44,887 bases of DNA, taken from assembly GCA_024711005.1 (NCBI GenBank), contig JANJTQ010000004.1, forward strand, positions 1 to 44,887. Direction: 5' to 3'. The notes under the pieces are model-generated. The model did no database searches. It was not told the DNA's origin and saw only the letters and a list, made by a program, of their open reading frames with translations. This stretch comes from Opitutaceae bacterium. Lineage in GTDB: Bacteria > Verrucomicrobiota > Verrucomicrobiia > Opitutales > Opitutaceae. Below are positions 4,211-44,287 of the stretch, piece after piece. The translations under genes were made by a program, and so were the position numbers. How positions within the stretch are numbered: position 1 is the first letter of the stretch; each line of letters begins with the position of its first letter.

Positions 4211-4238
4211 CCTGTTTCCATTGAACGAAGGCGGCGGT

Positions 4239-22297: not shown

Positions 22298-22444
22298 GAT
22301 CGGAGACGTTGGGAAATGAGCTGTGCCGACCTCGCGCTCCGCGAGACGGATTATTCGACGGGACGGGCTAAAGGAACTCCACGCTTCCCCACGTCCGGCT
22401 CGACGCGATCAGATTTCAAGCCACCGGAGGGTTCCTTGTGACTA

Positions 22445-23731: not shown

Positions 23732-26137
23732 TCAGCCCAGTGTGGCGACCACGCGGGTGCCGTCGCGGAGCCGGGCGGCGGGCGCCAGGTTCCCCGGGAG
23801 CGGTTCGCCGTCGACGGTCAGGTTCACGACCCCGCGATTCACGCCGCGCGGGTTGTCCACCTCGACGTGAACCGTGAGGCCGCGGAAACGGCGGCTTGCC
23901 GAGAAGCCCGGCCAGGCCCTGGGGATGCAAGGGTCGATCCGCAGACCGCCGACCTCCGGCTTCAGGCCGAGGATGTGGTTGATCGCCGTGTGGTGCGCCC
24001 ACGAGGCGGTGCCGGAGAGCCACGGAACCCGGGACCGGCCGGTCTTGGCGGAGAACCGGGAGTGGGTGCTTTGGCAATGGACATACGGCTCGATCTCACG
24101 GAGGTCCGCGCGGTCGTTTTGCGCGGCCGGGAGAAAGGACCGGTAATAGGCGTAGGCCCGGTCGCCGTCGCCGCCGGCGATCTCGGCGAGCACGGCCCAG
24201 CTCTGGGTGTGGGAAAAGATGCCGCCGTTTTCCTTGTTGCCGGGATTGAAGAGCACCGCGCGCATGACCGCGACGGGCGTTTCGACAAACGGCGGGGCGC
24301 ACATCGCGACTCCCCACTCGCAGGCCAGGCGGTCGCGCACGGCCGCGAGGGCGAGGCGGGCCTGCGCGGGGGAAGCCGCCCCGGAGAGAATGGCCCAGGC
24401 CTGCGTGTTCAGATAAACCTGCCCCTCCGGATAATCCTTGGTGCCGAAGATCGTGCCGTCCTCGGCGATGGCCCAGCGAAACCACCCGCCGTCCCAAGCG
24501 ACGCGCCCGAGGGCCTCGTCAAGCCGGGCGAGCCCGGCGCGCGCCCACGCGGATTCGGCGGACAGCTGCTTCCGATCGGCGATCCCGGCGTAAACATCGA
24601 GGCCGAGCCGGAGCTGGAAGGCGACAAAGAGGGACTCGCCCCGGTGGCCGAGCTTGAGGCAGTCGTTCCAGTCCGCGGCAAGCCCGCAGGGCAGGCCGTT
24701 GGCTCCGGAGCGTTCGAGGTTGAATTCAAGGGCGCGGCGCAGGTGGCCGAGCACCGTGGCCGCGCCGGCGTCTGCATAGGGCACCACCTCGTCGTAGAAG
24801 CCGGTGTCGCCGGTCTCGTCGACGTAGGCGGGGATGGCGTTGAAAAACCAAAGACAGTCGTCGGAGCGATAATGCGACGACGGGGTGGTCTCCATCTTCC
24901 CGGGCTCGTGGCTCCAGGGCCGGACCTCCGGTCGGGCGCCGCCGGTGGCGTCCTGCGCGGAGAGCATGAGGAGCAGGCGCGCGCGCACCTCCGCCGGAAG
25001 CATGGAGGTGACGCCGAGGCAGTCCTGCACGGTGTCGCGAAAGCCGTAGCCATCCCGCTGGTCGCCGGTGTAAACCAACGAACAGGAGCGTGACCACTCA
25101 AAGGTCATGAGGGCGTTGTAGGCGCCCCACGTGTTGGCCATGGCGTCGAAGGCGGGATCGGGGGTCCTCACCCGGCAGGTGTCGAGCAGGCCGTGCCAAC
25201 GGGCCTTGAGACGGTCGAGCTCGGCCTCGCAGGCCGGGACCGAACCGTATTCGGCGGCGACTCGCCGACCGGTCGTGTCCGCCCGACCGATGCCCAGCAG
25301 GATGATGACGTCGGCGGACTGGCCGGGTTCCAGAACAAGGTCGGACTGGAGCGCCCCGCAGGTGTTGTCGGAGAACCCCTGACTGCCGGTGCAACCGCCG
25401 ACGACGACGGCGGCCGGGGCGTGAAACCCGCCGTAGGGACCGACAAAGGCCTCGCGGTCGCAGTCGTGGCCCGTGACCGGAGCGACGCACTGGGTCATCC
25501 ACCAGTGGCGCGACTGGTCGCGGTTGGCGAAGTTGCCGGCGTCGGTCGGCAGGTGCGCGCACGAGGAGGCGGCGATGCAACCGGAGGCCGGGTCCCAGGC
25601 GGCCCGGCCGATGTATTGGGTGTATTGGAGATTGAGGGTGTCGTTGAGCAGGTTCCACTCGGTGGTGAATTCGCAGAAGGCGAAGACGCGGAGCCGGCGG
25701 CGCGCCTCCCCCGTGTTGACGACCTTGAGGCACCAGTATTCAAACTCGGCGTCGAGCGGGATGAAATAGGTGCTCTCGGCGCGGATGTCCGCGTAGTCCG
25801 AACGCATGGTCGCGTAGCCCGGACCAAAACGCGTCTCGGTCTCATACCGATCAAGGGGCTTGGCGGTGGCCTGCCAGGCGGCAGACCAGAATTCGCCCGA
25901 GTCCTGATCGCGCAGGTAAAACTGGCGGCCGGGCAAGTCCGTCGGCACGGCATTGTAGCGGTGACGAAGTATGCGGCCCTCCGCCGGGGATTGGGCGAAC
26001 GAATAGCCGCCGGCTCCGGTGGTGATGATGCCGCCGTAGCGACGGGAACCGAGATAATTGGACCAGACCCGGGGCGTGTCGGGGCGGGTGATAACGTATT
26101 CGCGAGCGACGGAATCGAAGTGGCCGTAGGTGGACAT
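23732..26137 (-). CDS. GH94 glycoside phosphorylase (chitobiose/cellobiose phosphorylase type)
   Basis: The 801 residues match the usual length of GH94 enzymes. The N-terminal beta-sandwich opens YGHFDSVAREYVITRPDTP and contains SNYLGSRRYGGIITTGAGGYSF, almost the textbook start of the family. The (alpha/alpha)6 barrel carries the general acid Asp489 in LAADWNDCLKLGHRGES and the phosphate-region motif HCQSTHSRFS with GRSRVPWLSGTASW. The spacing of ADWNDCL and the total length are closest to N,N'-diacetylchitobiose phosphorylase, but substrate choice needs testing. Such enzymes release sugar-1-phosphate from disaccharides in the cytoplasm. It has no signal peptide, as expected. A candidate operator lies about 85 bases upstream. 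Confidence 0.9.
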   Translation of the reverse strand: MSTYGHFDSVAREYVITRPDTPRVWSNYLGSRRYGGIITTGAGGYSFAQSPAEGRILRHRYNAVPTDLPGRQFYLRDQDSGEFWSAAWQATAKPLDRYETETRFGPGYATMRSDYADIRAESTYFIPLDAEFEYWCLKVVNTGEARRRLRVFAFCEFTTEWNLLNDTLNLQYTQYIGRAAWDPASGCIAASSCAHLPTDAGNFANRDQSRHWWMTQCVAPVTGHDCDREAFVGPYGGFHAPAAVVVGGCTGSQGFSDNTCGALQSDLVLEPGQSADVIILLGIGRADTTGRRVAAEYGSVPACEAELDRLKARWHGLLDTCRVRTPDPAFDAMANTWGAYNALMTFEWSRSCSLVYTGDQRDGYGFRDTVQDCLGVTSMLPAEVRARLLLMLSAQDATGGARPEVRPWSHEPGKMETTPSSHYRSDDCLWFFNAIPAYVDETGDTGFYDEVVPYADAGAATVLGHLRRALEFNLERSGANGLPCGLAADWNDCLKLGHRGESLFVAFQLRLGLDVYAGIADRKQLSAESAWARAGLARLDEALGRVAWDGGWFRWAIAEDGTIFGTKDYPEGQVYLNTQAWAILSGAASPAQARLALAAVRDRLACEWGVAMCAPPFVETPVAVMRAVLFNPGNKENGGIFSHTQSWAVLAEIAGGDGDRAYAYYRSFLPAAQNDRADLREIEPYVHCQSTHSRFSAKTGRSRVPWLSGTASWAHHTAINHILGLKPEVGGLRIDPCIPRAWPGFSASRRFRGLTVHVEVDNPRGVNRGVVNLTVDGEPLPGNLAPAARLRDGTRVVATLG

Positions 26138-26218
26138 GGTCGGAAAAAGCCGAATCCTGAAGCCGCCGCAGACACGGCGCCAGAAACCTCAGGTTTGGCC
26201 GCGAGGTAATCGGCCCGT

Positions 26219-27284: not shown

Positions 27285-29642
27285 TTAATAGACAACAATG
27301 ATGCCGTAGTGTTTTTTTCCCCAAGGCAAAGTGCGCGAGGGTATAACTTCGCCATCCACCAGAATCCGCATTGTCTCACCGTCCGTCAGACCTCGCCGCA
27401 TCGCGATCACATAGGTGGATCCCCGGAACTGGCGGACCAAATTGGCTCCCGCCCAGCTGTCGGGCATGCACGGATTGATCAGCAATCCCTTGGGCGTCGC
27501 CCGCACGCCGAGAATGCCCTCGACCATCACCCAAAGCATCCACGGAGCCGTGCCTGTGGAGATGAGTCGGGTGGAGACGCCAAAGTCGGGCGCGCCCTCC
27601 ATACCAAAATACGAGTTGGGCACGAAGATGGGCGGCTGCGTGTTGCGGCTCGGCGGGTTGGCCGCGTTGAGCGGCAGGTTGCGGATGATCTCGCGCAACG
27701 CCGATTCGCCATCCCCGAGGAAACATTCGGCGTAGGCCTTGAACATCCCCGCGTGACAATACACGGACCCGTTCTCGGACGTGCCCGGCTGCTTCAGGCT
27801 GATCCGGCCCCAGGTCGGATTCCACCGGGTAAACGCCGGCTTGAGCACCAGCGAGCCCGCCGGCGTTTCCAGCGAACGGATCGCGGCCAGCGTCGCGTCA
27901 AGGCGGTCTTCACTCACGTAGCCCGCCATGATCGCCCACGTCTGGCTGTTGAGAAAAATCCGCCCTTCCTCGTCGCCCGACGTGCCGAAGGCCACGCCGT
28001 CGTCGTCAAATCCGGTGACATACCACGCCCCGTTCCAGCAGTGCGCATGCACGGCGGCGCGCAACTCGTCGTCGATTTGACGAAGCCAGTCCGCCTCCGC
28101 GATCAAACCGAGCGCCCCGGCCACCTCGCGCAATCGCTGCACGGCCACGCCGAGCGCACACGTGGTCCAGGTGGATTCGCCGCGGCCTCGACGTCCGGGA
28201 CCGTTGATCGGATCGGTCCAGTCGCCGTCGCCAAAAAGGCAAAGCCTGTGCGCCCCGCGACTGTCCGCCAGATTGCGCACCGCCCGCAGCAGGTGCTCAA
28301 ACACGGTCACCGGCCGGGCGTCGTCGCGAAAGGGGAACGTCTCACTCATGAAGTCGAGCGAGCCGTTTTGATTGGCCACGATGATCGAGCAGATAACCAG
28401 CCAGATGCCGCCGTCCTTGTAATCGAGCGAGCAGACTTCGTGCTTGTCGGAGTCGCCCTGGGTCCACCATTGGCGCAGGTAGCCGTCGGTGTTTTGCAGC
28501 GGCAGCCGGGTGCGGAGGTAGGCGAGCGCCGCCGCCGGATCGAGGAGCGCGTAACCCAGGAAGTCTTGCAGCTGGTTGCGGATCGGAAAGCCCGTCGCCA
28601 GCCGGTTGAGACGGGACTGAAACACGATCTGTTTTTGCAACCAGTGGTTAAAAAACGCGTTCAACATCGTATCCGGCGTCTCGATACGCAGGCCGTCGCG
28701 ATAGTTCGCCCAACCCGCCCGCACCGCCGCCAGAGCGGCGGCGAATGCCGCGGTGTCGGCCAACTCCGTTTGCAGCCGCCGCACGACCGTCTCCTCGCGC
28801 TCCACGCCGGCGCAAAACCCGATTTCAACACTCTCCCCCGCATCGAGCTCGATGCAGTGGTGCAACGCGCCGACCGGAAACTCCGCGCCGCATGCGTCGC
28901 CCGAACACGCGCCCGCGAGCACGGCGCGCGGCACCGCGGAAAAATCCGGTCCGCCAAAAAAACCTCGTTCGCCGGACTCGCCGGATGACGGTCTCCGCGT
29001 GCTGAACAGATACCTCAACGTGGCTTTGCCCCTGTGCTGCTCGTAACCTTCGTAGCGCAGATGATGCGGGAAATACCGGCTGAAACATGCACCGATCCCG
29101 GAATCATACCAGGCCTTCGCGTGCATCACCCCGCCGTCCTCAAACGGAAACACCGTGAACAAGGAAAGTCGCCGGCTCGATCCGGAGGTGTTTTTCAAAA
29201 CCACCGTCCACAGTTCCCGGCTTCCCGCCAGGGGCACAAAACCGCTCACCCGACTTTCGATCCCCAAACGCCGGCCCCGATACTCCGCCTGGGCCGGGGT
29301 GTGGATCGCCTCGTAGGCCTCCATTGTTCGGTTCAGCGGTCGGCAAGTCAGATTCCATACATCGCCGTCTTGTTCATCCTTGAGGTAGAAGTAGCGATAG
29401 GAAGCAGGGAGTTCCCGGCGCGGGTCGGCCAGCACGAGGGTGCGGCCCTGGGCGCATTGATCCAGCTCGATGTAATACTCCGGATTGAAGAGATAGTTTT
29501 TCCAATTCGCCGGCGGATTGGCGGTGAGCACGTGCAGCGCGGCATCGTCTTTTTCGAGACGAAACAACCCGTCTTCGGCGGAGACCAACGTGGCGGCGGA
29601 TTGGGAGAATTGAGGAATGGCGGAACGGTCGATTGTCGGCAT
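27285..29642 (-). CDS. second GH94-like glycoside phosphorylase
   Basis: The ATG with complement at 29640-29642 gives MPTIDRSAIPQFSQSAA and 785 residues, typical for GH94/clan GH-Q. The N-terminal sandwich has WKNYLFNPEYYIELDQ and FYLKDEQDGDVWNLTCRPL, and the barrel has LQDFLGYALLDP, WWTQGDSDKHEVCSLDYKDG and Asp474 in FGDGDWTDPINGPGRRGRGE, which aligns with the general acid. Late motifs are NSYFGMEGAPDFG and STGTAPWMLW. It differs from the first GH94 (DWTD, not DWND), so it should act on another disaccharide or oligosaccharide; beta-glucan or oligosaccharide phosphorylases are options. It follows the PEP-CTERM gene at 29782 across a hairpin. A fossil of its 5' end is found at 34832-34926. Confidence 0.83.
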   Translation of the reverse strand: MPTIDRSAIPQFSQSAATLVSAEDGLFRLEKDDAALHVLTANPPANWKNYLFNPEYYIELDQCAQGRTLVLADPRRELPASYRYFYLKDEQDGDVWNLTCRPLNRTMEAYEAIHTPAQAEYRGRRLGIESRVSGFVPLAGSRELWTVVLKNTSGSSRRLSLFTVFPFEDGGVMHAKAWYDSGIGACFSRYFPHHLRYEGYEQHRGKATLRYLFSTRRPSSGESGERGFFGGPDFSAVPRAVLAGACSGDACGAEFPVGALHHCIELDAGESVEIGFCAGVEREETVVRRLQTELADTAAFAAALAAVRAGWANYRDGLRIETPDTMLNAFFNHWLQKQIVFQSRLNRLATGFPIRNQLQDFLGYALLDPAAALAYLRTRLPLQNTDGYLRQWWTQGDSDKHEVCSLDYKDGGIWLVICSIIVANQNGSLDFMSETFPFRDDARPVTVFEHLLRAVRNLADSRGAHRLCLFGDGDWTDPINGPGRRGRGESTWTTCALGVAVQRLREVAGALGLIAEADWLRQIDDELRAAVHAHCWNGAWYVTGFDDDGVAFGTSGDEEGRIFLNSQTWAIMAGYVSEDRLDATLAAIRSLETPAGSLVLKPAFTRWNPTWGRISLKQPGTSENGSVYCHAGMFKAYAECFLGDGESALREIIRNLPLNAANPPSRNTQPPIFVPNSYFGMEGAPDFGVSTRLISTGTAPWMLWVMVEGILGVRATPKGLLINPCMPDSWAGANLVRQFRGSTYVIAMRRGLTDGETMRILVDGEVIPSRTLPWGKKHYGIIVVY

Positions 29643-29707
29643 CGGAGGAACAGAATAAAAACAGGAGGACAGGCGCGGGCGCGGGGGCCTTGCCTCGCGA
29701 CGACGCC

Positions 29708-29741
29708 AAAACAAAGGCGGAAGGGACAGGTCCCTCCCGCC
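29708..29741 (-). terminator. hairpin after PEP-CTERM gene, upstream of GH94-like gene
   Basis: On the minus strand a 12-bp stem (positions 29716-29741, one G-T pair) with a very small loop is followed by TTTGTTTT (29708-29715). It lies between the PEP-CTERM stop and the GH94-like start, so it may be a partial terminator that lowers enzyme expression relative to the PEP-CTERM protein. Confidence 0.7.
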
Positions 29742-29781
29742 TCGGGAAAACAAATGCTCGGACTAGACTAAGTCCCGGCGC

Positions 29782-30788: not shown

Positions 30789-32777
30789 TCACGCCCCGAA
30801 ACACCGACTGACGGTCATTCGTGCATCGTCAGAATAAACCCGGATTTCGAAAATCCGGGTGTGATCCAGTCCGTTGGTGGCGTGGACGCGAACGCGCAAG
30901 GCGGTGGTCGAGCGGGATTCCGGAAGGACATGCGAGCGTCTCCGCTGGTAGTTGTCCCGCACCGAAAGGATAGCGCTCCAGCCGTCCGGCGATTCAATCT
31001 CCAGATCGTAGTCGCGCACGGTCTCCGGCTGGGGGCGCCCCCAGTGCATTTTTTCCGTATATCCGTCAGCCTGAGACAAGGTAAGCAGGCGGTGCATGCC
31101 GGTGTCGAAAATCAGGACAACCTCCCCGATGCGCACCGGCGCGGGCCAGCGAAGTTCCAGCCAGGCCGGCAGGCCGGCGGTCGGATCGCTCATCCAGCGA
31201 TGCGTGCCGGGGAACGCCCGATCAGGCGGCGCGCAGGTGCGCGGCAACAACGTCGTCTCCGGATCGGCGGAGTCCAACACGCGCATGCTTTGCTCCCACA
31301 GGTCGGCGGCGCCATCGGCGGCCGGGGGCGGGTGACCGTCGCCTTGCACGGCGCGGGTCTGGCCGGACAGGACGAGCGCGGGTTCGCCGCCGGGTTGGTG
31401 GCTGGAGGCGGCGACCTTCGCCCGGCGGGCGAGATCCTCCGCGTCCTCGTTGCGCACGCCGATCAGATAGGCGTCGTCCTGCAACAGGCGCTGGCGGATG
31501 GCCTGGAGCAGGCTCGGCGTGCGCGTGATGTCGGCCGCGTCGACCCCCTCGCGCAAGGCCAACGCGGCGGCGGTGCCGACGCCCTGGCCGACGGCGGCAC
31601 AGGTGGCCATGACGCGGGTGGAGGCGAAGGCGATGTGGCTGGCGGAGAGGTTGCGCCCCGCGAAAAAGAGATTTTTCAAAGTCGAGGCCACGCAGGCGCC
31701 CAGCGGAATGTCGTAGAGATAGGGCAGGTGGTTCTGAACGCAGGGCGGTGAATCGACGGCGTCCACACCCTCGGGCGGATGGAGGTCGATCGGCCACCCT
31801 CCGAAGGCGATGGCGTCGGGAAAGGAGCGCGATGAAAACAGGTCGCCTTCGGTGAGAACGTGCTGACCAAGAAAGCGGCGGCTTTCGCGCTTGCCGGGGA
31901 CGAAGCCGATCCACTCCAACGCCCACTGCGAGGCGTCGAGGCCGGAGTCGTTTTTGATGTGATGCCAGATGCCCAGCGCGATGGCCATGAGCTCGTCGCG
32001 GATGCGCTCGTTGTCCCTGATCGTGTCCAGGTGGCCTCCCCACTCAAGCCACCAGTAGCCGTATTCGAGACCGAGGTCGGAGCCCGCCTTTCCGAAGGGG
32101 CGGTGTTTGAAGTCGGCGGCGGTGAAGCGCCGCGCCCACGCGGGCGCCTGATAAGGCATGGGTCGTCCGTGTCGTCGCGCCTGAAACATGATCGAGGAAC
32201 CGAGGGTAAGTCCATCAGCCGCGGGCGGAGCGAGCGGCTCGGCGTATTCGTCGCGGCCTTCGCGCCCGTGACGGAAAGGGGCGCCGGCCTCCAGCCCCAG
32301 CCGACCGTCGCCGGTGCAATCGGCAAACAGGGTCGCCGAGATGACGAAGCGATCCTCGGTCGAGGGCCGCTCCGCCTTGACCTCGATGATGCGCCCGTCC
32401 TCGACCCGGGCCGACGTCACGGTCGTGTTGAGCAACAACGTGAGCGACGGCTCGGCCCGGCACAGGTCGTAAAGCATGAGGTCCATCATGTGGGGCGAGC
32501 GCTGCGGGTTGCGCACGGCCTGCTCAAGACGCATCTCCTCGATGATCCCGCCTTCGCGCGGCTCCAGCGAAAGCGGCAGCCCCGCGTTGAGTCCGGTGGC
32601 GCCGACGATGTGCATGCGGATCTCGCTGGAGGCGTTTCCACCGAGCACGGGGCGATCCTGACACAGGATGACGCGGGAACCGAGACGGGCCGCGGCGAGG
32701 GCGCAGCAAACGCCGGCCACGCCGCCACCCGCGACGAGCAGATCGCACTTCAATTCGTGTTCGTTTGTTTTTTCCAA
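30789..32777 (-). CDS. FAD-dependent oxidoreductase with C-terminal discoidin-like domain
   Basis: The 662 residues begin with the FAD-binding dinucleotide motif DLLVAGGGVAGVCCALAAAR, followed by VILCQDRPVLGGNASSEIRM, typical of the FAD_oxidored (PF12831) family found in carbohydrate loci of Verrucomicrobia, Planctomycetes and Bacteroidetes. A second FAD element is NLFFAGRNLSASHIAFASTR. The C-terminal 150 residues look like an F5/8-type C (discoidin) sandwich (AWLELRWPAPVRIGEVVLIF ... TRIFEIRVY). The family is thought to oxidise sugars or uronic acid derivatives, but individual substrates are rarely known. No signal peptide is present. It follows the heparinase-family gene by 45 bases and is probably co-transcribed with it. 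Confidence 0.82.
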   Translation of the reverse strand: MEKTNEHELKCDLLVAGGGVAGVCCALAAARLGSRVILCQDRPVLGGNASSEIRMHIVGATGLNAGLPLSLEPREGGIIEEMRLEQAVRNPQRSPHMMDLMLYDLCRAEPSLTLLLNTTVTSARVEDGRIIEVKAERPSTEDRFVISATLFADCTGDGRLGLEAGAPFRHGREGRDEYAEPLAPPAADGLTLGSSIMFQARRHGRPMPYQAPAWARRFTAADFKHRPFGKAGSDLGLEYGYWWLEWGGHLDTIRDNERIRDELMAIALGIWHHIKNDSGLDASQWALEWIGFVPGKRESRRFLGQHVLTEGDLFSSRSFPDAIAFGGWPIDLHPPEGVDAVDSPPCVQNHLPYLYDIPLGACVASTLKNLFFAGRNLSASHIAFASTRVMATCAAVGQGVGTAAALALREGVDAADITRTPSLLQAIRQRLLQDDAYLIGVRNEDAEDLARRAKVAASSHQPGGEPALVLSGQTRAVQGDGHPPPAADGAADLWEQSMRVLDSADPETTLLPRTCAPPDRAFPGTHRWMSDPTAGLPAWLELRWPAPVRIGEVVLIFDTGMHRLLTLSQADGYTEKMHWGRPQPETVRDYDLEIESPDGWSAILSVRDNYQRRRSHVLPESRSTTALRVRVHATNGLDHTRIFEIRVYSDDARMTVSRCFGA

Positions 32778-32822
32778 GATAACAGCGTGCGTTTTCCGGT
32801 TCGATTCGGCTTGTGGCGGCGA

Positions 32823-34646
32823 TCAGGAGGCCGGGATCAGGCGGGCTCTCGTGACGAACGAATGTTCGGGCTTTGAAACGCCGAACACCGCTCCCACGCG
32901 GCGCAGGCCGGGCTGCGCCGCATCGTAGGCGGCGGGCGGGCGCGAGGCGTCCTCGTCGACGATCTCCAGCGGGGCGTCGGCGATGAAGTCGATGCGCAGG
33001 GTCCTGCCCCCGTGGCGTAGCGTGACGCCGGTTACGTCGGTCTCCACCGCCGCGCGAGTCATCCAGGAGAACCGGTAACGCGCGCCGGGCGCGGCGCCCG
33101 CCAGTGTGTCGCCGATCACAATCGTATCCGACGATTCAATACGCAGCTCGCGATGCAGTCGCCCGGCCCGGCCGGCGTAAAGCGGAGTGAGGTCGATGAC
33201 CGCGGATTGCGTTCCGGCGGAGAAGCGATGCAACGTGGCGGCGGCGTTCTCGTCGGGCGGAATATCGTCGATGAGCGGGATGGAATGGCTGTGCGGTCCG
33301 AGCGCGTAAACGCTCCAGCGATCCTCTTCGAAAAGCCGCACGCCCGCCTGCTCAAGATCGTGATAAACCGGGGCGCCGAGGTCGGCGGTCCAGCGCACGC
33401 CGCCGAGTTCGAGGATGAAACCACCCGCGTCCATGTGGCCGTGGTGGCTGCGGGCGCGTCCGCCCTTGATGCCGGCGAAGAGCGATTCGCGACCTTCGCC
33501 GCGACGGAAGATCGCGAGCGGATTGACCCCCTCGGTGGCCCAGGCGGCGGGCGGCTGAACGGGGTCGGAGGCGGGATCGACGGACATCCACAGCAAAGCG
33601 AGCGCGAAAAAGGGATCGGGAAAGATGATGCGGCCGGGCCCCGTTGGCCCATCGTTCGGGAAGACGCGCAGGCGGGCGTGTTCGGTGGCGGCGACGCCCG
33701 GACGGGCGGTTTCGCGGGCGAACCAATACATGACGGGCAGAAACGTGCGTTTCTCGCGGGCATCGCCGTAGTTGAAAAAATCCCCGCCGGGACCGGTGAG
33801 TAAATTGACGACGTCCGCGCTTTGAAGAAAGGAGGCGTCAACCAAGTCGCCAAAAGAGCCGGTGGCCGTGCGGAGGGCCTCGGCGAGGAGAACGTGAAAA
33901 GTGGTGCCGTAGGCCCAATACGAAGGGCCCTCGGCGTAGGAGCCGGAGGGGGCATAAGTGTCGAGGATCCCGGAGACGTTGCGCCGGGCGCGGGCGATGG
34001 TGACCGAGGCGAGTTCGGATTCGTCCTCGGCAATGGCAAGGGCGGAGAGCGCGAGTCCCGTCTCGCAGACCTGCACCCAGTTGTTGTGCAGAGCGCGCCA
34101 GTGGAGTTGGTCGGAGTCGCCGGGTCGGAGCGCGTGCCTGACGAGGGCCTCGCGGATCGTGCGCCGGGACTCGGGCGAAAGGGTGTCGTAAAGCCAGTCG
34201 TAGCCGATGGCAACGCCGGCGGCAATCGTGGCGGTGTTGAGGAAGAACGAGGGGTTCCAGTCGGCAAAGGCGGCCACGGCGAGCATCTCCCGCTCGGCGC
34301 GGGCGGCCCATCTGGTTTCTCCGGTGAGCCGGTAAAGCAGCGCAAAGTTAAGGATGCGCCGGAGGGCTTCGCCTGCGGAGGGAAGCCGGAGACCGACGAA
34401 GATACGCTCGACGGGTGGCTCGGCGTATTCGCGTTCGGCGGTCTCCCGCAGGAGCAGAAAGGCGTCGCGCAACGGACCGGGCCGCGCGCTCCCCTCACGA
34501 ATGCGATCAAAGTCGCCGGCACTCGCGAGCAGACGAGGATGCGGAAGCGGTGGAGTACCGGTGACGGGAATTCCGGTCTTCGCAGTGACCGATCCGGGAA
34601 AGCGCATGGAGTGAAGAAGGGTTCTGACGACGACGAACGTGTCCAT
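32823..34646 (-). CDS. heparinase II/III-family polysaccharide lyase
   Basis: The start at 34646 (MDTFVVVRTLLHSMRF) gives 607 residues; the frame extends 15 bases upstream to a TTG. The N-terminal (alpha/alpha) barrel has ALHNNWVQVCETGLALSALA and the catalytic-region GSYAEGPSYWAYG. The beta-sandwich has the family motif HHGHMDAGGFILELGGVRW with a metal-binding and catalytic His cluster. Such lyases cleave uronic-acid-containing polymers (alginate, heparan-like, chondroitin-like or hyaluronan) by beta-elimination. No signal peptide is clear at the chosen start, so either it acts on imported oligosaccharides in the cytoplasm or the start is wrong. It leads the pair with the FAD oxidoreductase and carries a candidate operator about 115 bases upstream. 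Confidence 0.82.
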   Translation of the reverse strand: MDTFVVVRTLLHSMRFPGSVTAKTGIPVTGTPPLPHPRLLASAGDFDRIREGSARPGPLRDAFLLLRETAEREYAEPPVERIFVGLRLPSAGEALRRILNFALLYRLTGETRWAARAEREMLAVAAFADWNPSFFLNTATIAAGVAIGYDWLYDTLSPESRRTIREALVRHALRPGDSDQLHWRALHNNWVQVCETGLALSALAIAEDESELASVTIARARRNVSGILDTYAPSGSYAEGPSYWAYGTTFHVLLAEALRTATGSFGDLVDASFLQSADVVNLLTGPGGDFFNYGDAREKRTFLPVMYWFARETARPGVAATEHARLRVFPNDGPTGPGRIIFPDPFFALALLWMSVDPASDPVQPPAAWATEGVNPLAIFRRGEGRESLFAGIKGGRARSHHGHMDAGGFILELGGVRWTADLGAPVYHDLEQAGVRLFEEDRWSVYALGPHSHSIPLIDDIPPDENAAATLHRFSAGTQSAVIDLTPLYAGRAGRLHRELRIESSDTIVIGDTLAGAAPGARYRFSWMTRAAVETDVTGVTLRHGGRTLRIDFIADAPLEIVDEDASRPPAAYDAAQPGLRRVGAVFGVSKPEHSFVTRARLIPAS

Positions 34647-34705
34647 TGAAATGCCGGGCAATGACGAAGCGGGCCGCCCCTGCCCCCCAAAGAAGTCAGC
34701 ACCGG

Positions 34706-34717
34706 TCGCTTCAACGC
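34706..34717. promoter_or_regulatory. degenerate partner site for the operator at 34757
   Basis: TCGCTTCAACGC matches 8 of 12 positions of TTGTTTCAACAA, and its centre (34711.5) is exactly 51 bp from that of the good site at 34757. The match is weak alone; only the spacing raises it. Confidence 0.3.
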
Positions 34718-34756
34718 GAACAGATTCAAAATCGTCCCGGATGTCCCTTGTGGGTT

Positions 34757-34768
34757 TTGTTTAAACAT
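34757..34768. promoter_or_regulatory. candidate operator TTGTTTAAACAT
   Basis: Identical in sequence to the site at 22445. It lies upstream of the heparinase-family gene, between it and the pseudogene remnant. Confidence 0.65.
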
Positions 34769-36122: not shown

Positions 36123-36231
36123 AGATCCCTTGAAAAATCCGTCCCAGTGAGATGCCGCTCCTGATCAAAACAAGATTTGGGCTAATATTTCGTACGTGGG
36201 AGCCTAATGTCCCCGTCCCGCTTCTTGCTCC

Positions 36232-39200
36232 GTGAAAAATTTCCCCCACCCCTCCTTGGACCCGACCTCCGTTCTCCCGTCCGTGCAGGCCGGCGAAGGT
36301 CCAGACCGCTCCGATGTTCGCCAGCGGTCCCGCGGTTTCGCCCTGCTCATCACCATCACCCTGCTTGCGTTTTTGGTCCTGTTACTCGTATCGCTGGCGG
36401 CGCTGACACGCGTCGAGACCCAGGTGGCGAGCAACAACCAGCAACTCTCCCAAGCCCGTCAAAACGCGCTCATGGCGCTGAACATCGCCCTCGGCGAACT
36501 TCAGAAATACACCGGCCCCGACCAGCGCACGACCGCCCGCTCCGACATGGACGCCACGCTGGCCAACACCACGACCTCCAGCGGCCGCTGGCTCGGCGCC
36601 TACGGCAGCGGCGCGCCCGCCGACTACGCCATGGAGCCCTCGGCCATCTCCGACACCGTGGTCGCCGCCTCCGATACCCGCGGCAGTCAGGCCAAGCTGC
36701 TCAACTGGCTCGTCAGCGGCAACGAGAACACCGCCTTCGATCCCTCGTCCCATGTCGGAGCGACCGGCAACATTTCCACACCGCCGCCATCTTCGAGTTT
36801 CCAATTCACTCCGGATGGCACGGTGAGCGGCCTCGCAGTCGGCAGCACCGCCCTTACGGAAACCATCACGATCGCCGATAAAAACGGCATCGCCCAACCC
36901 GCCCGCCTGCTCGTGGGCGCCCACACCGCAGGCGCTTCCCCCGCCGATTACGTCGTTGCTCCTCTTAAAGAAGTCACCGCGGAAGCAACCGGCTTGGGCA
37001 CGACTCCCGTGCCGGTTGGCCGCTACGCGTGGTGGGTGGGCGATGAAGGATCCAAGGCCCGTTTTGACCTCCCCATGTCCACCGCCTCGCAGGCCCCTCA
37101 TGGCTTCGTTTCGGCCCAGCGTGCCGCCGTCGAACTGGTCGACGCCGTAAACCCCTCCGCCAGCACCTCGCTCGCCGCCGGAGACATGCTGGATCCCGCA
37201 GGCGCCCTCTCCCGTTACAATCCGGCGGCAACTGGTCTCACCCAACTGCTTTCGCCCGACCAGTTCCCCCTGTTGTCGACCACGGACGCCGCAACCCTGC
37301 GCCAGGCGATTCAATACCGCTACCATGATCTGACCGCCTATTCCTCTTCGGTCCTCTCCGATACCTACGCCGGCGGTATGAAAAAGGATTTGTCAGCCGT
37401 CTTGGCCACGGGAGCGACCACGCCCGCCGATACGGATTTCATCTTCACTCCCAAGGCAAACACCGGATCCAGCTCCCATGAGTTCGGCCTGCCCACCTGG
37501 GGTCAACTGCGCGACCATGTCCGCACGTTTTCCAGTTCCGCCGGCCTCGACCCCCGCTTCCCAGTCATGACGAAGCTGTCCACCTTCGCCGCACCGACAC
37601 CCACTTCGATCGGCATCTCGCCGGTCATGACCTATGCGAACCTGGGCTTCGCCTACGGCGTTCCCCAAACCGAGACCGCGCCGTTCGATCAGGCCGGCAA
37701 CCCGATCCGTCTGGCGCTCTTCCCGGTTGTCGTGCTCTGGAATCCCTACACCACCTCCATCAACCCGTCGAAATATGTCGTGGGCTTCAGGAAATACTTT
37801 GACGCCAAGTTCGAACTTCAGGCCTCGCGGCCCAACCCTCCCGGCGGCTGGGACGTTCTTAATAGTTTCGACATGGATGGGAATCGCTACCTGCGCTTCG
37901 TGATCGACGCTCCCGCCATTCCCGCCGGCCAAAGTCTGGTCTTCACCCTCGGCCAGAACGGCGTGACTTACAGCCCGGCCAACACGAGCAACCCCCTCAC
38001 CCACGGATTCCGTCCAGGTAACCATGTGCTCGTGAATCCGTCGGCCACCGATCTGCCCAAGATGGTGGTTTCCACCCCTGGCCGGACCTACCGGGTGGGG
38101 GTCAACGGACGGAATGGCACGTCCGACTCCGGACTACCGGTCCCGAAAACGTTCTTCGGAAACACGACGGCTCACTACGGACGCGGCACCACCGGCGTCT
38201 GCTATCTGTCTCCTGTCGGCGCACCGGCCCCCGACAACGAACTACCCTACAAGGGTTCCAACTTCTCCAGTTGGCAGTGGTATCAATGTGTCACCGCACT
38301 GGGCACCAGCAATAACATCAGCCCCTACGGAACCAACGTCGGCTACGCCCGCCACCAGGACGCCAACGGCCTGATGCGCGAGGAGGGTGACATCGACATG
38401 ATCGTCGAGCCTTCCTTCCGGCTTTCGTTCCGCATGCAATTCAAAGACTCCCGCTACCGATGGATCGCCCAGGCCAACCCGCACGCGTTCATGATGAGCA
38501 GGCCGTCCAGCCCCACCGGCAGCGGCGGCGTCGTCAACTGGACGTTGGAACCCACCGACACCAGCTGGCCCAACGATCTCGCCGTGCTCGGTTCCGCCTC
38601 CGCGCCCCGCGCATCGGCCGGCCTGACGCTGAACCACAGCGGCACGAACCCGGTGGATGTCACCCTCTTCGAATTCCGACCCGACAACCAACCCCTGCTC
38701 ACGATCGGTCAGCTCCAGCATGCCAATCTCGCGTGGCTGAGCAGCTACCCGGCCTACGCAATCGGCAACAGCCTCGGCGCAACTTTCTTCGACAACGCGA
38801 AATTGGGCACTCATCCGGCGGCCCTCATGCTCGTCACCAATCCGACGGGCGCTTACGACCTCAACGTCGCCAACCGGTCCTCCGCCTTCTACGATCTGTC
38901 GTGGCTGCTGAACCACGCCTTGTGGGATCGCTACTTCGTATCGACCGTGCCTCACCCAGGCTCGGGCACCGCCGCCGACGCCGCCGTAACGCAGGACACG
39001 GACGTGCCTCCGGTCCTGCCCAACCCTCGCCACACACGCCTCGGCGATCCCGATAAAAAAGATCTGAAGAGCGCCGACCGCGCGGCCGCCATGCTGATGC
39101 TCAAGGGTGGCTTCAACATCAACTCCACCTCTGAACAAGCCTGGCGTGCCGTGCTCGGAGGCACCCACCGGCTGGCGTATGACCCCGAGACCCAAAGCAC

Positions 39201-39963
39201 CGGCGGCACGCCCCTGCAAGTGGTCTTCCCTCGGTTCGCAAAACCGATCGCCGGCGCCCCGGCCGTCATCGACAACGACAACGCATGGCTCGGCTATCGC
39301 ACGCTTGGGACCGATCAAATCGCCAATCTGGCCAGGAACATCGTTTCCGAAATCCGCCGTCGGGGCCCGTCCATCTCGCTCGCCGACTTCATCAATCGCC
39401 GCCTCACCCATGCCATCAACCCGGATGGAACCGACCCTTTCCCCCGCCAAAACGACAAGCGCATCAAAGGGGCGATCCAAGCCGCCATCGAGATGACCGC
39501 GACCGGTGTTGGCGCCATCAATGACGCCGCTACGATCCCTTACGCCGACCCGCTCGTCTCGGAAAAATTCAACAACCCGGTCACCAATGCCTTCAAGGCC
39601 GGCGAGGCGGTCGACGGGGCGCCTTCAATCGCCGCCCCCTACAGCGCCACCGCCGCTTTTTCACCTCAATACGTCACACAAGCCGACGTCCTCTCAACCA
39701 TCGGCAGCGGACTCTCCGCACGGTCCGACACCTTTGTGATTCGCACCTACGGCGAGACGATCAATCCAGTGCTCTCGCCCTCCTCGCCCGGCTACATTTC
39801 CGGACGCGCCTGGTGCGAGGCCGTCGTGCAACGCCTGCCTGAATACCTCGACACCGTCGCAAACCCCAACGCCTACGAGGCGCCCGTTTCCGCGATCAAT
39901 CGTCAGATGGGACGTCGCTACAAGATCGTCTCCTTCCGCTGGCTTACTCCCAACGACATATGA
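36232..39963 (+). CDS. giant type IV pseudopilin-like protein (PilX/Verru_Chthon cassette A-like)
   Basis: The 1243-residue protein from GTG 36232 has a short leader ending RQRSRG directly before the hydrophobic helix FALLITITLLAFLVLLLVSL (residues about 36-58). This is the Gly-Phe cleavage site and N-terminal helix of type IV prepilins. The acidic residue at mature position 5 is missing, as in PilX/GspK-like minor pilins. The helix continues into LTRVETQVASNNQQLSQARQ and NALMALNIALGELQKY. Then follow about 1150 residues of beta-rich extracellular sequence, far larger than a normal pilin, as in the Verrucomicrobia-specific cassette proteins. Its role is likely in pilus or secretion-like surface assembly; this is inference. 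The stop overlaps the start of the next gene by four bases (ATGA), so the two are translationally coupled. Confidence 0.72.
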   Translation: MKNFPHPSLDPTSVLPSVQAGEGPDRSDVRQRSRGFALLITITLLAFLVLLLVSLAALTRVETQVASNNQQLSQARQNALMALNIALGELQKYTGPDQRTTARSDMDATLANTTTSSGRWLGAYGSGAPADYAMEPSAISDTVVAASDTRGSQAKLLNWLVSGNENTAFDPSSHVGATGNISTPPPSSSFQFTPDGTVSGLAVGSTALTETITIADKNGIAQPARLLVGAHTAGASPADYVVAPLKEVTAEATGLGTTPVPVGRYAWWVGDEGSKARFDLPMSTASQAPHGFVSAQRAAVELVDAVNPSASTSLAAGDMLDPAGALSRYNPAATGLTQLLSPDQFPLLSTTDAATLRQAIQYRYHDLTAYSSSVLSDTYAGGMKKDLSAVLATGATTPADTDFIFTPKANTGSSSHEFGLPTWGQLRDHVRTFSSSAGLDPRFPVMTKLSTFAAPTPTSIGISPVMTYANLGFAYGVPQTETAPFDQAGNPIRLALFPVVVLWNPYTTSINPSKYVVGFRKYFDAKFELQASRPNPPGGWDVLNSFDMDGNRYLRFVIDAPAIPAGQSLVFTLGQNGVTYSPANTSNPLTHGFRPGNHVLVNPSATDLPKMVVSTPGRTYRVGVNGRNGTSDSGLPVPKTFFGNTTAHYGRGTTGVCYLSPVGAPAPDNELPYKGSNFSSWQWYQCVTALGTSNNISPYGTNVGYARHQDANGLMREEGDIDMIVEPSFRLSFRMQFKDSRYRWIAQANPHAFMMSRPSSPTGSGGVVNWTLEPTDTSWPNDLAVLGSASAPRASAGLTLNHSGTNPVDVTLFEFRPDNQPLLTIGQLQHANLAWLSSYPAYAIGNSLGATFFDNAKLGTHPAALMLVTNPTGAYDLNVANRSSAFYDLSWLLNHALWDRYFVSTVPHPGSGTAADAAVTQDTDVPPVLPNPRHTRLGDPDKKDLKSADRAAAMLMLKGGFNINSTSEQAWRAVLGGTHRLAYDPETQSTGGTPLQVVFPRFAKPIAGAPAVIDNDNAWLGYRTLGTDQIANLARNIVSEIRRRGPSISLADFINRRLTHAINPDGTDPFPRQNDKRIKGAIQAAIEMTATGVGAINDAATIPYADPLVSEKFNNPVTNAFKAGEAVDGAPSIAAPYSATAAFSPQYVTQADVLSTIGSGLSARSDTFVIRTYGETINPVLSPSSPGYISGRAWCEAVVQRLPEYLDTVANPNAYEAPVSAINRQMGRRYKIVSFRWLTPNDI

Positions 39964-40742
39964 TCTCCCTGCCACGCCATCTGCCCGTTCCTCGCGTCCT
40001 GCGCCAAGGCATCCTGCTGTCTGCCGCGCTCCTGCTGCCCGGCCCACTGCCTTCCGCCCGCGCAGCCGTCGGCGACGCCCCGCCACCGGCCGTCTTTCGG
40101 GCACTCGCTGTCGAGCGCGGCATTTCTCAACTGCATTACGACCTCGCCGGGAAACCCATCACGTTTTCCGCCCGTATCGGCTCGCTCTCCCCTCCCTGCA
40201 AGCTTCCGGAAACAGGCCGGCTCGTCCTCTACAAACGGGTGCCCTCCGCCAAACCCGGCGAACCGCCGAAAAAAGTGGTCCTCGCCGAAGAACACGTCGG
40301 CACGGAAGGACCCTACCTGATCCTGCTGGCTTACGCCCCCCCCGACCCCGCGACCGGAGCCCGTCGCCTCGTGCTGCGGGTGATCGACGATTCATGGAAG
40401 GCTCATCCACCGGAATCCGTGCGTGTCCTCAACTTGTCGGCCCGTCGCACCGCCATCCAATTCGACACCGCCACCCTGGAACTCGCATCGGGAGAGTTCC
40501 GTTTGTTTTCCCCGATGCCGGACACCGGGGTTGTCGATTTCAAGGCTGCCGCAATGGAAAACGGCACGTGGAGTCTTCGCGTGCAATTGCCCCAAGCCCT
40601 CTACCGGCGAACACGACAAACCTTTCTCATCAAGGACACCCTTCCCTCCGAAGAAAATCCCCGGCCGGTCGAGCTCAACATAACCAACATCGTGGACACC
40701 GCCCAACCTCCCCAAGACACGCAGCCGGCCCCTCGTCTTTGA
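39960..40742 (+). CDS. exported hypothetical protein coupled to the giant pseudopilin
   Basis: This 260-residue protein is not recognised. It starts inside the stop of the preceding gene (overlap ATGA), so both are made from one message. It has a signal peptide (QGILLSAALLLPGPLPSARA) and a beta-rich mature part with phrases such as ISQLHYDLAGKPITFSARIG, EGPYLILLAYAPP and SLRVQLPQALYRRTRQTFLI. The end is proline-rich. The coupling suggests it acts in the periplasm or outer membrane as partner of the pseudopilin. No domain can be named with confidence. Confidence 0.72.
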   Translation: MISLPRHLPVPRVLRQGILLSAALLLPGPLPSARAAVGDAPPPAVFRALAVERGISQLHYDLAGKPITFSARIGSLSPPCKLPETGRLVLYKRVPSAKPGEPPKKVVLAEEHVGTEGPYLILLAYAPPDPATGARRLVLRVIDDSWKAHPPESVRVLNLSARRTAIQFDTATLELASGEFRLFSPMPDTGVVDFKAAAMENGTWSLRVQLPQALYRRTRQTFLIKDTLPSEENPRPVELNITNIVDTAQPPQDTQPAPRL

Positions 40743-40888: not shown

Positions 40889-43800
40889 ATGAAAACCACC
40901 CCCGCACCCCGGTCCGCAGTCCGGTTCAAACTGCCCCGCCTCGCCGCACTGACTCCCCTCGTCATCGCGTTCGCACTCGCAGCCTCCCCCGCCCGCGCAA
41001 CCACCACCCTCTACGGCTCGACCGCCGACCGCCAGGTCTCCTCCGCCGGCGCCGTCACCGACGTCAACCCGATGCTGAGCGGCTACTCCGGCACCACCGG
41101 ACTCAACGCCGTATTCGTTTTCCAACTACCCACGCTGCCCGCCGGCAAGGCCTTCGCCAACGTCAGCGCCCGCATCTACCATCAGGGCAAGACCGGCACT
41201 CCCAACTTCAACGCCGACCTCTACGGACTCGGCTCGTCCTCCAGCCCGACCGTCAACGCCTCCGACTTCTACGCCGGTTCGCTCGACACCTCCTCCCTGC
41301 TCCTGCAGGACAACCTGCTCACCCCGTCCAGCGGCGCCGGCGGCAAGGTCGCTTCCGGGGCCGTCCTCACCGACTACCTCAACCTCGCCTACGCCGGCGG
41401 CTCCGGCGCGGGCCACTACGTCTTCCTGCGCGTCAGCCCCGACGTCGCCGGCCTCAACAACTACACCCGCTACAACTTCTACAGCGCCGAGACCACCCTC
41501 GGCACATTCTATGAACCCTCCCTTACCTACGACGTCGTCGACGCCCCGCCTGCCTGGGTCTCCGTGCCCCTCGGCGGAGGCGGCTACGTCACCGGCATCG
41601 TCTCCGATCCCACCGGCGCCGACATCTACATCCGAACCGACGTCGGCGGCGCTTTCCGCTGGGTCGAATCCGCCGGCGCCTGGGTCTCCATCACCGATAC
41701 CATCGTCCCCACCACCACGCCCGGCGCCCAGACGCTCATGAACACCGCGGCCATCGCCGTCGATCCCTCCAACTCCAATAATCTCTACGTCGCCGCCGGC
41801 AGTCCCGTGTCCGGCTCCCTCCGCGGCATCTATGCCTCGACCGACGGCGGCGCCAGTTGGACCGCCATCGAGACCACCATCGCCATGGACGGCAACGGCG
41901 CCTTCCGCGCCTTCGGCGAACGCCTCGCCGTCGATCCCAACAACTCCAACGTCCTCTGGTTCGGCTCCCACTCCCAGGGCCTCTGGAAGGGCGTGAAGTC
42001 CGGCGGTTCCTGGACGTGGTCGCAGATCCCCTCCGGTTCCGTGCCCTTCGGTCAGGTCGCCTCCGGTGACAAGGCCGGCGTCGTCTTCGTCGCCTGCGAT
42101 CCCAACGGCGGCTCCACCCTCACCTACGCCGGCGTCTACGACAGCGTCGGCTCCACCGGCGGCGTCTATCTCAGCACCAACGGAGGCTCCACCTGGGCCA
42201 AGGTCGCCGGCACCGCGCTCACCAAACCCGCCCGCGGTCAGGTCGCGCCCAACGGCACCCTCTACGTCAGCGCCAACGGCGTCATCGCCAAAATGCCCCG
42301 CGGCGGCTCCCTCGCCGCCATCACCCCGCTCGCCGGCGTCAACTACCGCGGCGTCGCCACCGATCCCAACGACTCCACCGGCAACACCGTCTACGTCGCC
42401 GAGGCCAACGGCGCCGCCCAATACAACAAAATCTGGCGTTCCACCAACGGCGGCTCCACCTGGGTCCAGCAGTATCAAAACCTCAACGACAGCCTCGCCA
42501 TCGCCCGCACCGAACCCGACGGCACCCCCGCCATCACCGGCTACTGGTTCGGCAACATCACCTCCCTGCTCGTCAATCCCGCCAATTCCGCAGAGCTCTG
42601 GGCCTGCGATTTCTTCGGCGTCGCCCGCACCCAAAACGCCGGAATGCTCGGCGGCTCCGGCGTCGGCAACCAGGCCATCTGGTATATGCTCCAGAAAAAC
42701 CAGGATGAGACCGTCGTCGAAACCCTCAAAAACGCCCCCACCGGCGCCGCCCTCATGACCGGAGTCGCCGACGTCGGCGGCTTCCGCTACAACGACCTCT
42801 CCGAACGCCCCCAAGGCACCGCCGGCAACAACTTCTCCAACCCCTACGGAGCCAACAGCAACAGCCTCGACTTCTCCGAGGGCAACCCGGACCACTGGGC
42901 GCGCGCCTGGACGAGCAACACCCTCATCAGCGGTTCCAGCTACTACGGCGGCGGCGCCACCTCGCGCGACGGCGGCGTCACCTGGCTCTCCTTCGGCGAG
43001 ATCGACCGCCACACTGTCTCCAGCGGCACCGCCGGCTGGGAAACGTGGGACCTCACCACCTACCTCGCCTCCCGCAAAGCCAAGGGCGCGACCGTCGTCA
43101 CCCTCGTCCTCGCCTCCGGCCCCGCCACCAACGACTCCACCACCCAGCTCATGTTCGCCTCGCTCGAAGCCACCGACACCGCGCTCCGTCCGCGTCTGGT
43201 CATCAACGGATCCACCACGCTGATCACCACCGCCGACGCCTTGGTCTCCGGCTACGGCGGCGCCACCAACTACGGGTCGTGGGACACCGTGCGCGTGGCC
43301 TACGCCTGGGGCAACGTCTCCAACGAGAAACACACCTACCTCAAGTTCGACCTCACCGGAGCCCCTTCCTCCATCACCAGTGCTGAGCTGCGCCTGCACC
43401 GCGTCGCCGACGCCGCCGGCATCGACCGTCCGGTCGGGGTTTATGCCTGCTCCGACACTTCATGGAGCCAATCCACCATCACTTGGAACAACCGGCCCAC
43501 GCCGTACGCCAGCAGCGCCGGCCGGCCCATCAACAACCATCGCTACCGCACCGCCACCGGACTCAATCCCAGCGGCGGCCGCGTGGCCATCTCCGCCACC
43601 AACTCCGACCTGCTCGTCTGGATGCCCTTCGGCGGCGGCACGATGCCCCTCTACAGCGATGACCGCGGCGTCCTCTGGAGAGCCACCACCGGCCTGCCCG
43701 CCAACGTCAACCTGCTCATCAGCAAGGCCAACCCCAGCTACGTTCTCAACCAGCTCACGTCCGACCGCGGCAACGGCAACTTCTACATCGCCCGCTTCGC

Positions 43801-44287
43801 CGCATCCGGGGGCGCCCACCACATCTACCGCAGCGCCGACGGCGGCGCCAACTGGTCGCAGGTCGGCACCATCCCGTTCACCGGGGGTTCCTACAACATC
43901 TACCGCTGCCAGATCGTCGCCGCCCCTTCCGCCGGCCACGTCTGGGTGTGCGACGACGGCGTCAGCGGTACCACCAACGGCGGCCTCTGGAAATCCACCG
44001 ACTCCGCCGCCACCTGGAGCACCCGCCTCGTCAACATCCGCGCCGTCCGCCAGGTCGCCTTCGGCAAGCCTCCCGCCGGGTCCTCCTACGACTACTCGGT
44101 TTTCATCAACGGCTATTACAACGGCGTGAAAGGCGTGTATCGATCCGACGACTACGGCTCCACCTGGACCGCCATCCCCGACCTGCCCACCAACGCCGAC
44201 ATCGAGTCCCTCGCCGGTGATCGCCAGATCCACGGCAGCCTCTTCATCGGCACCCACGGTCGCGGCGTCCTGCACTACCAACCCTGA
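40889..44287 (+). CDS. GH74 xyloglucanase-family enzyme with additional and inserted beta-sandwich domains
   Basis: From ATG 40889 the protein has 1132 residues with a signal peptide (LAALTPLVIAFALAASPARA). Residues about 29-215 form a first sandwich domain. The GH74 two-propeller fold then begins with VPLGGGGYVTGIVSDPTGAD and RTDVGGAFRW, whose Asp251 is the catalytic base in GH74. The second propeller has GVADVGGFRYNDL with Asp628 as the general acid. Both catalytic Asp are present, so it should be active as an endo-xyloglucanase or related beta-glucanase. Residues about 707-890 interrupt the second propeller with a DNRLRE/CBM96-like sequence in swapped order. BNR Asp-boxes such as STDGGASW, STNGGSTW and SADGGANW are frequent. 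No candidate operator was seen in its promoter. Confidence 0.88.
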   Translation: MKTTPAPRSAVRFKLPRLAALTPLVIAFALAASPARATTTLYGSTADRQVSSAGAVTDVNPMLSGYSGTTGLNAVFVFQLPTLPAGKAFANVSARIYHQGKTGTPNFNADLYGLGSSSSPTVNASDFYAGSLDTSSLLLQDNLLTPSSGAGGKVASGAVLTDYLNLAYAGGSGAGHYVFLRVSPDVAGLNNYTRYNFYSAETTLGTFYEPSLTYDVVDAPPAWVSVPLGGGGYVTGIVSDPTGADIYIRTDVGGAFRWVESAGAWVSITDTIVPTTTPGAQTLMNTAAIAVDPSNSNNLYVAAGSPVSGSLRGIYASTDGGASWTAIETTIAMDGNGAFRAFGERLAVDPNNSNVLWFGSHSQGLWKGVKSGGSWTWSQIPSGSVPFGQVASGDKAGVVFVACDPNGGSTLTYAGVYDSVGSTGGVYLSTNGGSTWAKVAGTALTKPARGQVAPNGTLYVSANGVIAKMPRGGSLAAITPLAGVNYRGVATDPNDSTGNTVYVAEANGAAQYNKIWRSTNGGSTWVQQYQNLNDSLAIARTEPDGTPAITGYWFGNITSLLVNPANSAELWACDFFGVARTQNAGMLGGSGVGNQAIWYMLQKNQDETVVETLKNAPTGAALMTGVADVGGFRYNDLSERPQGTAGNNFSNPYGANSNSLDFSEGNPDHWARAWTSNTLISGSSYYGGGATSRDGGVTWLSFGEIDRHTVSSGTAGWETWDLTTYLASRKAKGATVVTLVLASGPATNDSTTQLMFASLEATDTALRPRLVINGSTTLITTADALVSGYGGATNYGSWDTVRVAYAWGNVSNEKHTYLKFDLTGAPSSITSAELRLHRVADAAGIDRPVGVYACSDTSWSQSTITWNNRPTPYASSAGRPINNHRYRTATGLNPSGGRVAISATNSDLLVWMPFGGGTMPLYSDDRGVLWRATTGLPANVNLLISKANPSYVLNQLTSDRGNGNFYIARFAASGGAHHIYRSADGGANWSQVGTIPFTGGSYNIYRCQIVAAPSAGHVWVCDDGVSGTTNGGLWKSTDSAATWSTRLVNIRAVRQVAFGKPPAGSSYDYSVFINGYYNGVKGVYRSDDYGSTWTAIPDLPTNADIESLAGDRQIHGSLFIGTHGRGVLHYQP

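Follow-up and report, generated by a model that had tools for sequence, protein, structure and literature searches.

A circularly permuted CBM96-like domain inserted in the second propeller of a GH74-like enzyme from Opitutaceae

The window (the whole stretch of DNA analysed here, 44,887 nucleotides from an Opitutaceae bacterium) carries near its end a gene for a GH74-like protein of 1132 amino acids (aa), in which a second domain interrupts the second of two propellers. The ATG at 40889 is the inferred start of this ORF, and the frame is already open from 40775. The features referred to below are the following:

23735-26188 and 27288-29762, both minus strand: two GH94 phosphorylase-type proteins
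30792-32822: FAD oxidoreductase, between the GH94 genes and the GH74 gene
32826-34760: heparinase II/III-like protein, also between the GH94 genes and the GH74 gene
36208-39960, plus strand: large 1251-aa ORF, the second gene upstream of the GH74 gene, without Pfam matches at 1e-5
39960-40742: ORF of 260 aa between the 1251-aa ORF and the GH74 gene
40889-44287, plus strand: whole enzyme of 1132 aa, GH74-like, with two propellers and a permuted CBM96-like insert
41000-41542, plus strand: N-terminal extra domain (aa ~38-218), no Pfam family at E≤1
41543-42988, plus strand: first GH74 propeller and beginning of the second (aa 219-700), by alignment to solved GH74 chains
42989-43204, plus strand: first part of the CBM96-like insert, its C-terminal half (aa 701-772), approximately positions 106-150 of a 155-position in-house HMM
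43205-43231, plus strand: linker NGSTTLITT (aa 773-781) between the old termini, C to N
43232-43498, plus strand: second part of the CBM96-like insert, its N-terminal half (aa 782-870), from ADALVSG (782) to ITWNNRP (864-870)
43499-43573, plus strand: low-confidence tail leading from the insert to the propeller (aa 871-895; pLDDT <50, model residues 174-198)
43574-44284, plus strand: remainder of the second GH74 propeller (aa 896-1132), 6p2m_A residues 484-691 aligning with aa 898-1130

The 1251-aa ORF begins with a prepilin-like hydrophobic N-terminus, which presumably resembles that of Verrucomicrobia cassette proteins. The window also encodes a second Asp-box propeller protein (19685-22408, minus strand), which has Sortilin/BNR matches and aligns with GH74 chains at E 9.2e-14. 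After an early blade, this protein has approximately 180 residues (aa 213-393, 21772-21230) without a clear Asp-box pattern. The stretch gives one loose Asp-box motif match and matches no Pfam family at E≤1; possibly it is a further inserted domain. The second propeller protein and the two GH94-type proteins would fit a beta-glucan-degrading locus, the substrate class being a prediction from sequence.

Alignments to solved structures support a GH74-like protein with two tandem Asp-box propellers, for which glycanase activity is predicted. The chain 6p2m_A matches in two pieces (E 4.2e-56), its residues 8-483 falling on aa 219-715 and 484-691 on aa 898-1130. Residues 483 and 484 are adjacent in 6p2m_A, so approximately 185 residues of the window protein intervene at this point. 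When the enzyme model was used as a structural query, the 17 best matches were GH74 or xyloglucanase-type chains (Z 36.8-39.6, with 576-614 residues aligned at an rmsd of 10.7-11.7 across both propellers), and the next match had a Z of 28.0. Both lines of evidence agree with the GH74 host named in the first-pass annotation. In the alignments, Asp251 (in IYIRTDVGG) falls on the residue which is mutated in 6mgl (D60A in the title of that entry) and Asp628 (in TGVADVGG) on that mutated in 2ebs (D465N in its title), positions which we take to be the GH74 catalytic Asp pair. The Asp628 column is invariant in all 19 aligned homologue rows. By eye, the N-terminal domain (aa ~38-218, 41000-41542, plus strand) is partly common to relatives such as L019 and L044.

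The window enzyme is like the xyloglucanase-type double propellers (6p2m, 1sqj, 6mgj) in that both propellers align and both catalytic-type Asp residues are kept. GH74 has been classed as a “type 3” Asp-box propeller, i.e., an uninterrupted run of Asp-box blades (PMC2716378), whereas in the window enzyme a domain interrupts the second propeller.

Immediately before the insert lies an Asp-box, SRDGGVTWLSFG (aa 692-703), and the propeller picks up again at GGRVAIS (aa 896). By motif, the C-terminal half (C-half) extends from EIDRHTV (704) to RPRLVI (767-772), and it is followed by the linker and then by the N-terminal half (N-half). Aa 701-895 (42989-43573) are one circularly permuted CBM96/DNRLRE-type domain, and its new ends lie in the loop after WNNRP. 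In the second propeller, these ends are spliced in after the Asp-box and before the strand that follows it (GGRVAIS). The first-pass annotation had described a DNRLRE/CBM96-like domain at 43000-43560 with its C-half before its N-half, which is correct to within approximately 15 bases. It had put this domain between the second-propeller Asp-box and GGRVAIS, with the old ends joined and the new ends in a loop, and the Asp-box, the linker NGSTTLITT and the cut after WNNRP all lie as it said. Because the halves are in reversed order, we call the domain a circularly permuted derivative of CBM96, not plain CBM96.

The evidence for the permutation comes from comparing native and rejoined orders. On the window protein, Pfam CBM96 (PF24517) matches in two stretches, the best being aa 776-878 on profile positions 3-105, and NCBIfam DNRLRE_dom (NF033679) also matches in two, the best being aa 782-884. 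The isolated insert in native order likewise gives two complementary Pfam CBM96 stretches (99.5 bits in total, best 3-105). When the tail is trimmed and the halves are rejoined as N-half plus C-half, there is a single match to profile positions 3-163 of 164 with 106 bits (cut-off 26). The gain in bits is small, so the weight rests on one unbroken alignment which spans the whole profile. Solved CBM96-type chains also match the rejoined order: 8wab at residues 16-173 of 175 (E 3.9e-7) and 7vbo at residues 36-173 of 175 (E 7.5e-6).

We also scored the window insert, rotated in 5-residue steps, against an in-house HMM of canonical domains. The best-match score climbs smoothly from 66.9 in native order to a maximum of 90.0, reached by the rotations which begin with VINGSTTL and TTLITTAD, then goes down to 37.1 and up again to 50.4 at the final step. 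A peak at the old-end linker, where the first-pass annotation had seen the old termini joined, is the pattern expected of one rotated domain. With an in-house HMM of 20 canonical domains, the window insert scores 86.1 bits rejoined vs 70.7 for its best native half, and rejoining produces one full-length match in 18 of 20 GH74 inserts and in 9/9 inserts of GH16-like enzymes (described below). In the two remaining GH74 rows (L048 and L029), rejoining does not add the C-half because the halves abut or overlap at the cut.

In a Pfam scan of inserts doubled in silico, the halves were joined in both GH16 inserts tried (best 5-163, across the junction) and in none of the four GH74 inserts tried. The GH74 result is probably due to the tail of approximately 25 residues, which stays in place when an insert is doubled. 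With the tail trimmed and the halves rejoined, a single match appeared in both GH74 inserts tried (those of the window and Chthoniobacter flavus).

AlphaFold2 predicts the insert alone as a compact single domain with mostly beta structure (pTM 0.78). Mean pLDDT is 72-96 in 13 of the first 16 ten-residue blocks, and the last 25 residues are below 50. In a larger model (aa 219-1132; mean pLDDT 66.7, pTM 0.51), the insert blocks (model residues 481-650) are at 58-94. The predicted models were based on 6 sequences. With the insert model as query, Foldseek found nothing in the PDB at E≤0.001, and the best match of a VIA structural search (Z 7.3 over 113 residues) may reflect no more than a shared sandwich. 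No CBM96 structure (7vbo or 8wab) was among the matches listed in these searches, and an aligner which keeps chain order would be expected to miss a permuted relative.

The first-pass annotation had itself raised the prospect that the segment is two partial or unrelated domains. Two unrelated domains are ruled out by the compact AlphaFold2 model, the rejoined full-profile match and the rotation scan; the halves are complementary parts of one profile. A related alternative is that two separate, adjacent CBM96 copies each left a degenerate half, and that these halves do not fold together. The sequence does look like a tandem array minus both outer halves, and the C-half is weak by itself (3.9-24.6 bits). 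Against this, complementary halves are retained across homologues, and both are largely confident in the model of the insert alone. The GH16 inserts, moreover, are cut into pieces of approximately 120 and 32 residues, the shorter of which would be unlikely to fold alone. We consider degenerate halves very improbable and read the insert as a single domain.

A single rearranged locus could be an artefact, so the distribution of the arrangement matters. Searches for the insert were made within the phylum Verrucomicrobiota. A query made of the insert and its flanks gave full-length matches in 5/114 genomes (the window genome counted) and any match at 1e-10 in 8/114; wider searches gave full-length matches in 7 of 372 genomes of the order (1e-20) and 4 of 387 of the phylum. 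Selecting proteins by an Asp-box upstream of an N-half match yielded 20 distinct GH74 proteins with the permuted insert from nine genomes, and all 19 aligned homologue rows agree in the permuted order and in its site. Carriers include a Rariglobus sp. MAG (Opitutia), “Opitutia bacterium UBA4506” and C. flavus Ellin428 (Spartobacteria), and the window genome has two additional paralogues on other contigs. The contig scan behind these names yielded 4 loci from close relatives, and two others were distant propellers from Saprospiraceae. Within Verrucomicrobiota, the permuted arrangement spans two classes and at least four families, and the permuted GH74 insert is therefore widespread but uncommon.

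These homologues bear on whether the window contig is misassembled or holds a one-off rearrangement, a doubt which the first-pass annotation had attached to its claim together with the prospect of normal order in homologues. The window genome is a 351-contig assembly, which makes the question reasonable. However, separately assembled genomes have the same order and site, with 20 proteins from nine genomes in agreement, among them the C. flavus protein and the two paralogues on other contigs. This rules out misassembly, and we give a one-off rearrangement practically no chance.

GH74 relatives also occur with the site empty. The part of the propeller after the insert, used as query, matched in 21/226 genomes of the order. 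Between the flanking motifs there are 191-212 residues at 10 loci vs 11-38 residues at 16 loci, out of 27 loci with rows. For this count, 30 loci plus L053 were entered, of which L102, L110, L117 and L053 did not yield rows; the site of L053 was judged empty by eye, and L099, a known carrier with a spurious downstream match, lies outside the 10 and 16. In the post-insert propeller search, carriers score at least 174 bits and proteins measured as empty at most 122 bits, which suggests that the insert is characteristic of a single GH74 subgroup.

A second permutation occurs in GH16-like enzymes. Three such enzymes in the window genome contain CBM96 as profile positions 35-163 (or 38-163) followed by ~4-37, inserted between FW[LV]MP[DE]R and a GGMExD segment which we take to hold the GH16 catalytic motif E-x-D-x-x-E. 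Another 10 GH16 proteins with the same order and site come from G001, G004, G010, G118, G538 and G566, making 13 in total, and a dedicated search gave full matches in 3/189 genomes of the class. The rejoining described above used 9 of the 13, the excluded proteins being one in L056 (without the expected end motif) and L078-L080. The second host is a GH16-like enzyme whose GH16 profile is split by the CBM96 insert: in all three proteins given, the best PF00722 stretch starts at profile position 67-70 right after the insert, and GH16 structures align on both sides of it, residues 118 and 141 of the 4bq1 chain being the flanks (P0005). The GH16 inserts are cut at profile position ~34, unlike the GH74 inserts.

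How the permuted domains arose can be approached through their old ends. The old-end linker has 6-9 residues in 16 of the 17 GH74 inserts measured (17 residues in the other) and 6-7 in all 12 GH16 inserts measured; L048, L049 and L060 (GH74) and L003 (GH16) were left out because their halves fell below the cut-offs. Canonical tandem CBM96 pairs, counted only if above the cut-offs (L066, for one, was not), have linkers of 8-13 residues in five of six cases and 105 in the sixth. That only 6-9 residues bridge the old ends suggests that the natural termini are already close.

Candidate sources for such a domain exist among the relatives. In L053 (G010), a GH74 protein whose site is empty, two canonical CBM96 domains stand in tandem at the C-terminus, and a stretch spanning their junction (L033) scores 105.9 bits against the permuted model, covering 163 positions. 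The single chain of L047/L029 (G004) combines a permuted insert with a canonical CBM96 at the C-terminus. Elsewhere, an ORF of L090 (G092:C47, 866-3727) holds three tandem canonical CBM96 domains with linkers of 10-11 residues, possibly the type of array which could serve as donor. In L086 (G484:C66, ORF 477-4355, aa ~677-1047), a CBM96 in canonical order is interrupted by approximately 230 residues after a WNNRP-like motif, the N-half being HMM positions 2-101 at aa 680-775 and the C-half 110-155 at aa 1004-1047. The GH74 inserts are cut in this same loop.

In a tree of 49 rejoined CBM96 domains, the GH74 inserts form one clade (support 97/88), adjoining canonical C-terminal domains of GH74 enzymes (91/78), and the GH16 inserts form a separate clade (99/99). 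This sister relation, at 91/78, is suggestive but not decisive. One alternative is that the GH74 and GH16 inserts share a permuted ancestor which was later re-cut. Forcing all permuted rows together is not rejected by an AU test (p 0.062), and the linkers are similar in both hosts; on the other side, the cut points differ, the two clades are separate at the support values above, and the constrained tree is 22.25 log units worse. We regard a shared permuted ancestor as improbable and prefer separate origins.

The permuted inserts are most likely one-period slices of tandem arrays, produced in two events, as judged from domain order, linkers and the tree. The permuted unit would be an out-of-phase slice of a tandem CBM96 array, made up of the end of copy 1, the linker and the start of copy 2. 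Its source would probably be an array like that at the C-terminus of a GH74 relative, from which the slice would have been copied into the propeller loop. The permutation could instead have come from one canonical domain, by relocation of a segment or by duplication and trimming inside the GH74 loop. In favour of this single-domain route, no intermediate with two full copies inside a propeller was found among the loci read, and the sister support is only 91/78. Against it, old-end linker lengths are near those of tandem linkers, and a GH74 relative has a tandem pair at its C-terminus. We think that route less likely than a tandem-array slice.

What the inserted domain does can be considered by comparison with TM6-N4 of the alginate lyase Dp0100 (PDB 7VBO), described as the characterised founding CBM96 and as binding sugar (PMC9971899). 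Its groove residues are given as Lys10, Lys22, Lys25, Lys27, Lys31, Arg36 and Tyr159, with R36E abolishing alginate binding (PMC9971899). By hand mapping, the window insert has Ala and Lys at the Lys27 and Arg36 positions, so these two sites give no support for alginate-type binding there, and C. flavus (L050) keeps both residues as Lys and Arg. On this mapping, the replacement bears on predicted alginate specificity and not on homology to CBM96. The GH16 cut, mapped in the same way, lies in a loop which has the Lys27 equivalent on one side and the Arg36 equivalent on the other.

The insert may be a putative carbohydrate-binding module which two anchor points fix rigidly to the catalytic domain. 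So anchored, it would extend the substrate cleft or hold a polysaccharide chain, rather than dangle on a flexible terminal linker. It might instead be a structural or protein-contact spacer without sugar binding, which the Ala and Lys of the window insert would suit. Retention of both residues in some members (C. flavus) speaks against a spacer, as does sugar binding by the founding member of the family (PMC9971899). Specificity would be expected to shift with the enzyme. A spacer seems to us rather unlikely. We have good confidence in the overall reading, i.e., one rotated domain in the propeller, with a likely tandem-slice origin and, as its weaker part, a doubly anchored putative binding module.

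Compared with CBM96/DNRLRE domains in general, the window insert is the same in its full-length profile match once rejoined and its 8wab and 7vbo matches, and it is different in its reversed halves, its insertion in a catalytic domain rather than appended to one, and the two replaced alginate-binding residues. Work by Montanier in 2010 reportedly found CBM36 and CBM60 to be beta-sandwich CBMs related by circular permutation. Those permuted forms are separate CBM families, whereas the type in the window consists of insertions in catalytic domains, with two cut points in one family.

Inserted domains are also known. In Vibrio cholerae sialidase, a “type 2” Asp-box propeller, an inserted lectin-like domain similarly breaks the propeller, though this enzyme is of another family and has a single propeller (PMC2716378). 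CE20 esterases have an inserted beta-sandwich ancillary domain, described as helping to form the active-site cleft, and in their case the word “circular” is absent from the main text of the source (PMC12313940). A xylanase-xylose-binding-protein chimera also fuses an enzyme with a sugar-binding protein and is described in terms of circular permutation and domain insertion, but it is a recombination fusion made in the laboratory (PMC4896006). In the open-licence PMC literature, covered mostly at title and abstract level, we found no permuted CBM96 and no CBM inside a GH74 propeller. CBM permutation (CBM36/CBM60) and inserted ancillary sandwiches (CE20) are already known.

Circular permutation is usually inferred from distant folds, with the donor and the steps lost. 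Here, the same trick with a different cut point appears in two unrelated enzyme families, providing a natural case of rearranged domains entering enzymes. One genus has the tandem pair, the empty-site and occupied enzymes and a second family with another cut, so the slice model is directly testable. As a tentative generalisation, about which we have more doubt than belief, tandem CBM96 arrays may feed phase-shifted, foldable slices independently into catalytic domains (GH74 propeller, GH16 jelly roll), with the groove turned to the cleft each time. Profile searches give two broken half domains for one such domain, so binding surfaces inside catalytic domains can be overlooked. The doubly anchored insertion is also a natural template for fusing binding modules to glycanases.
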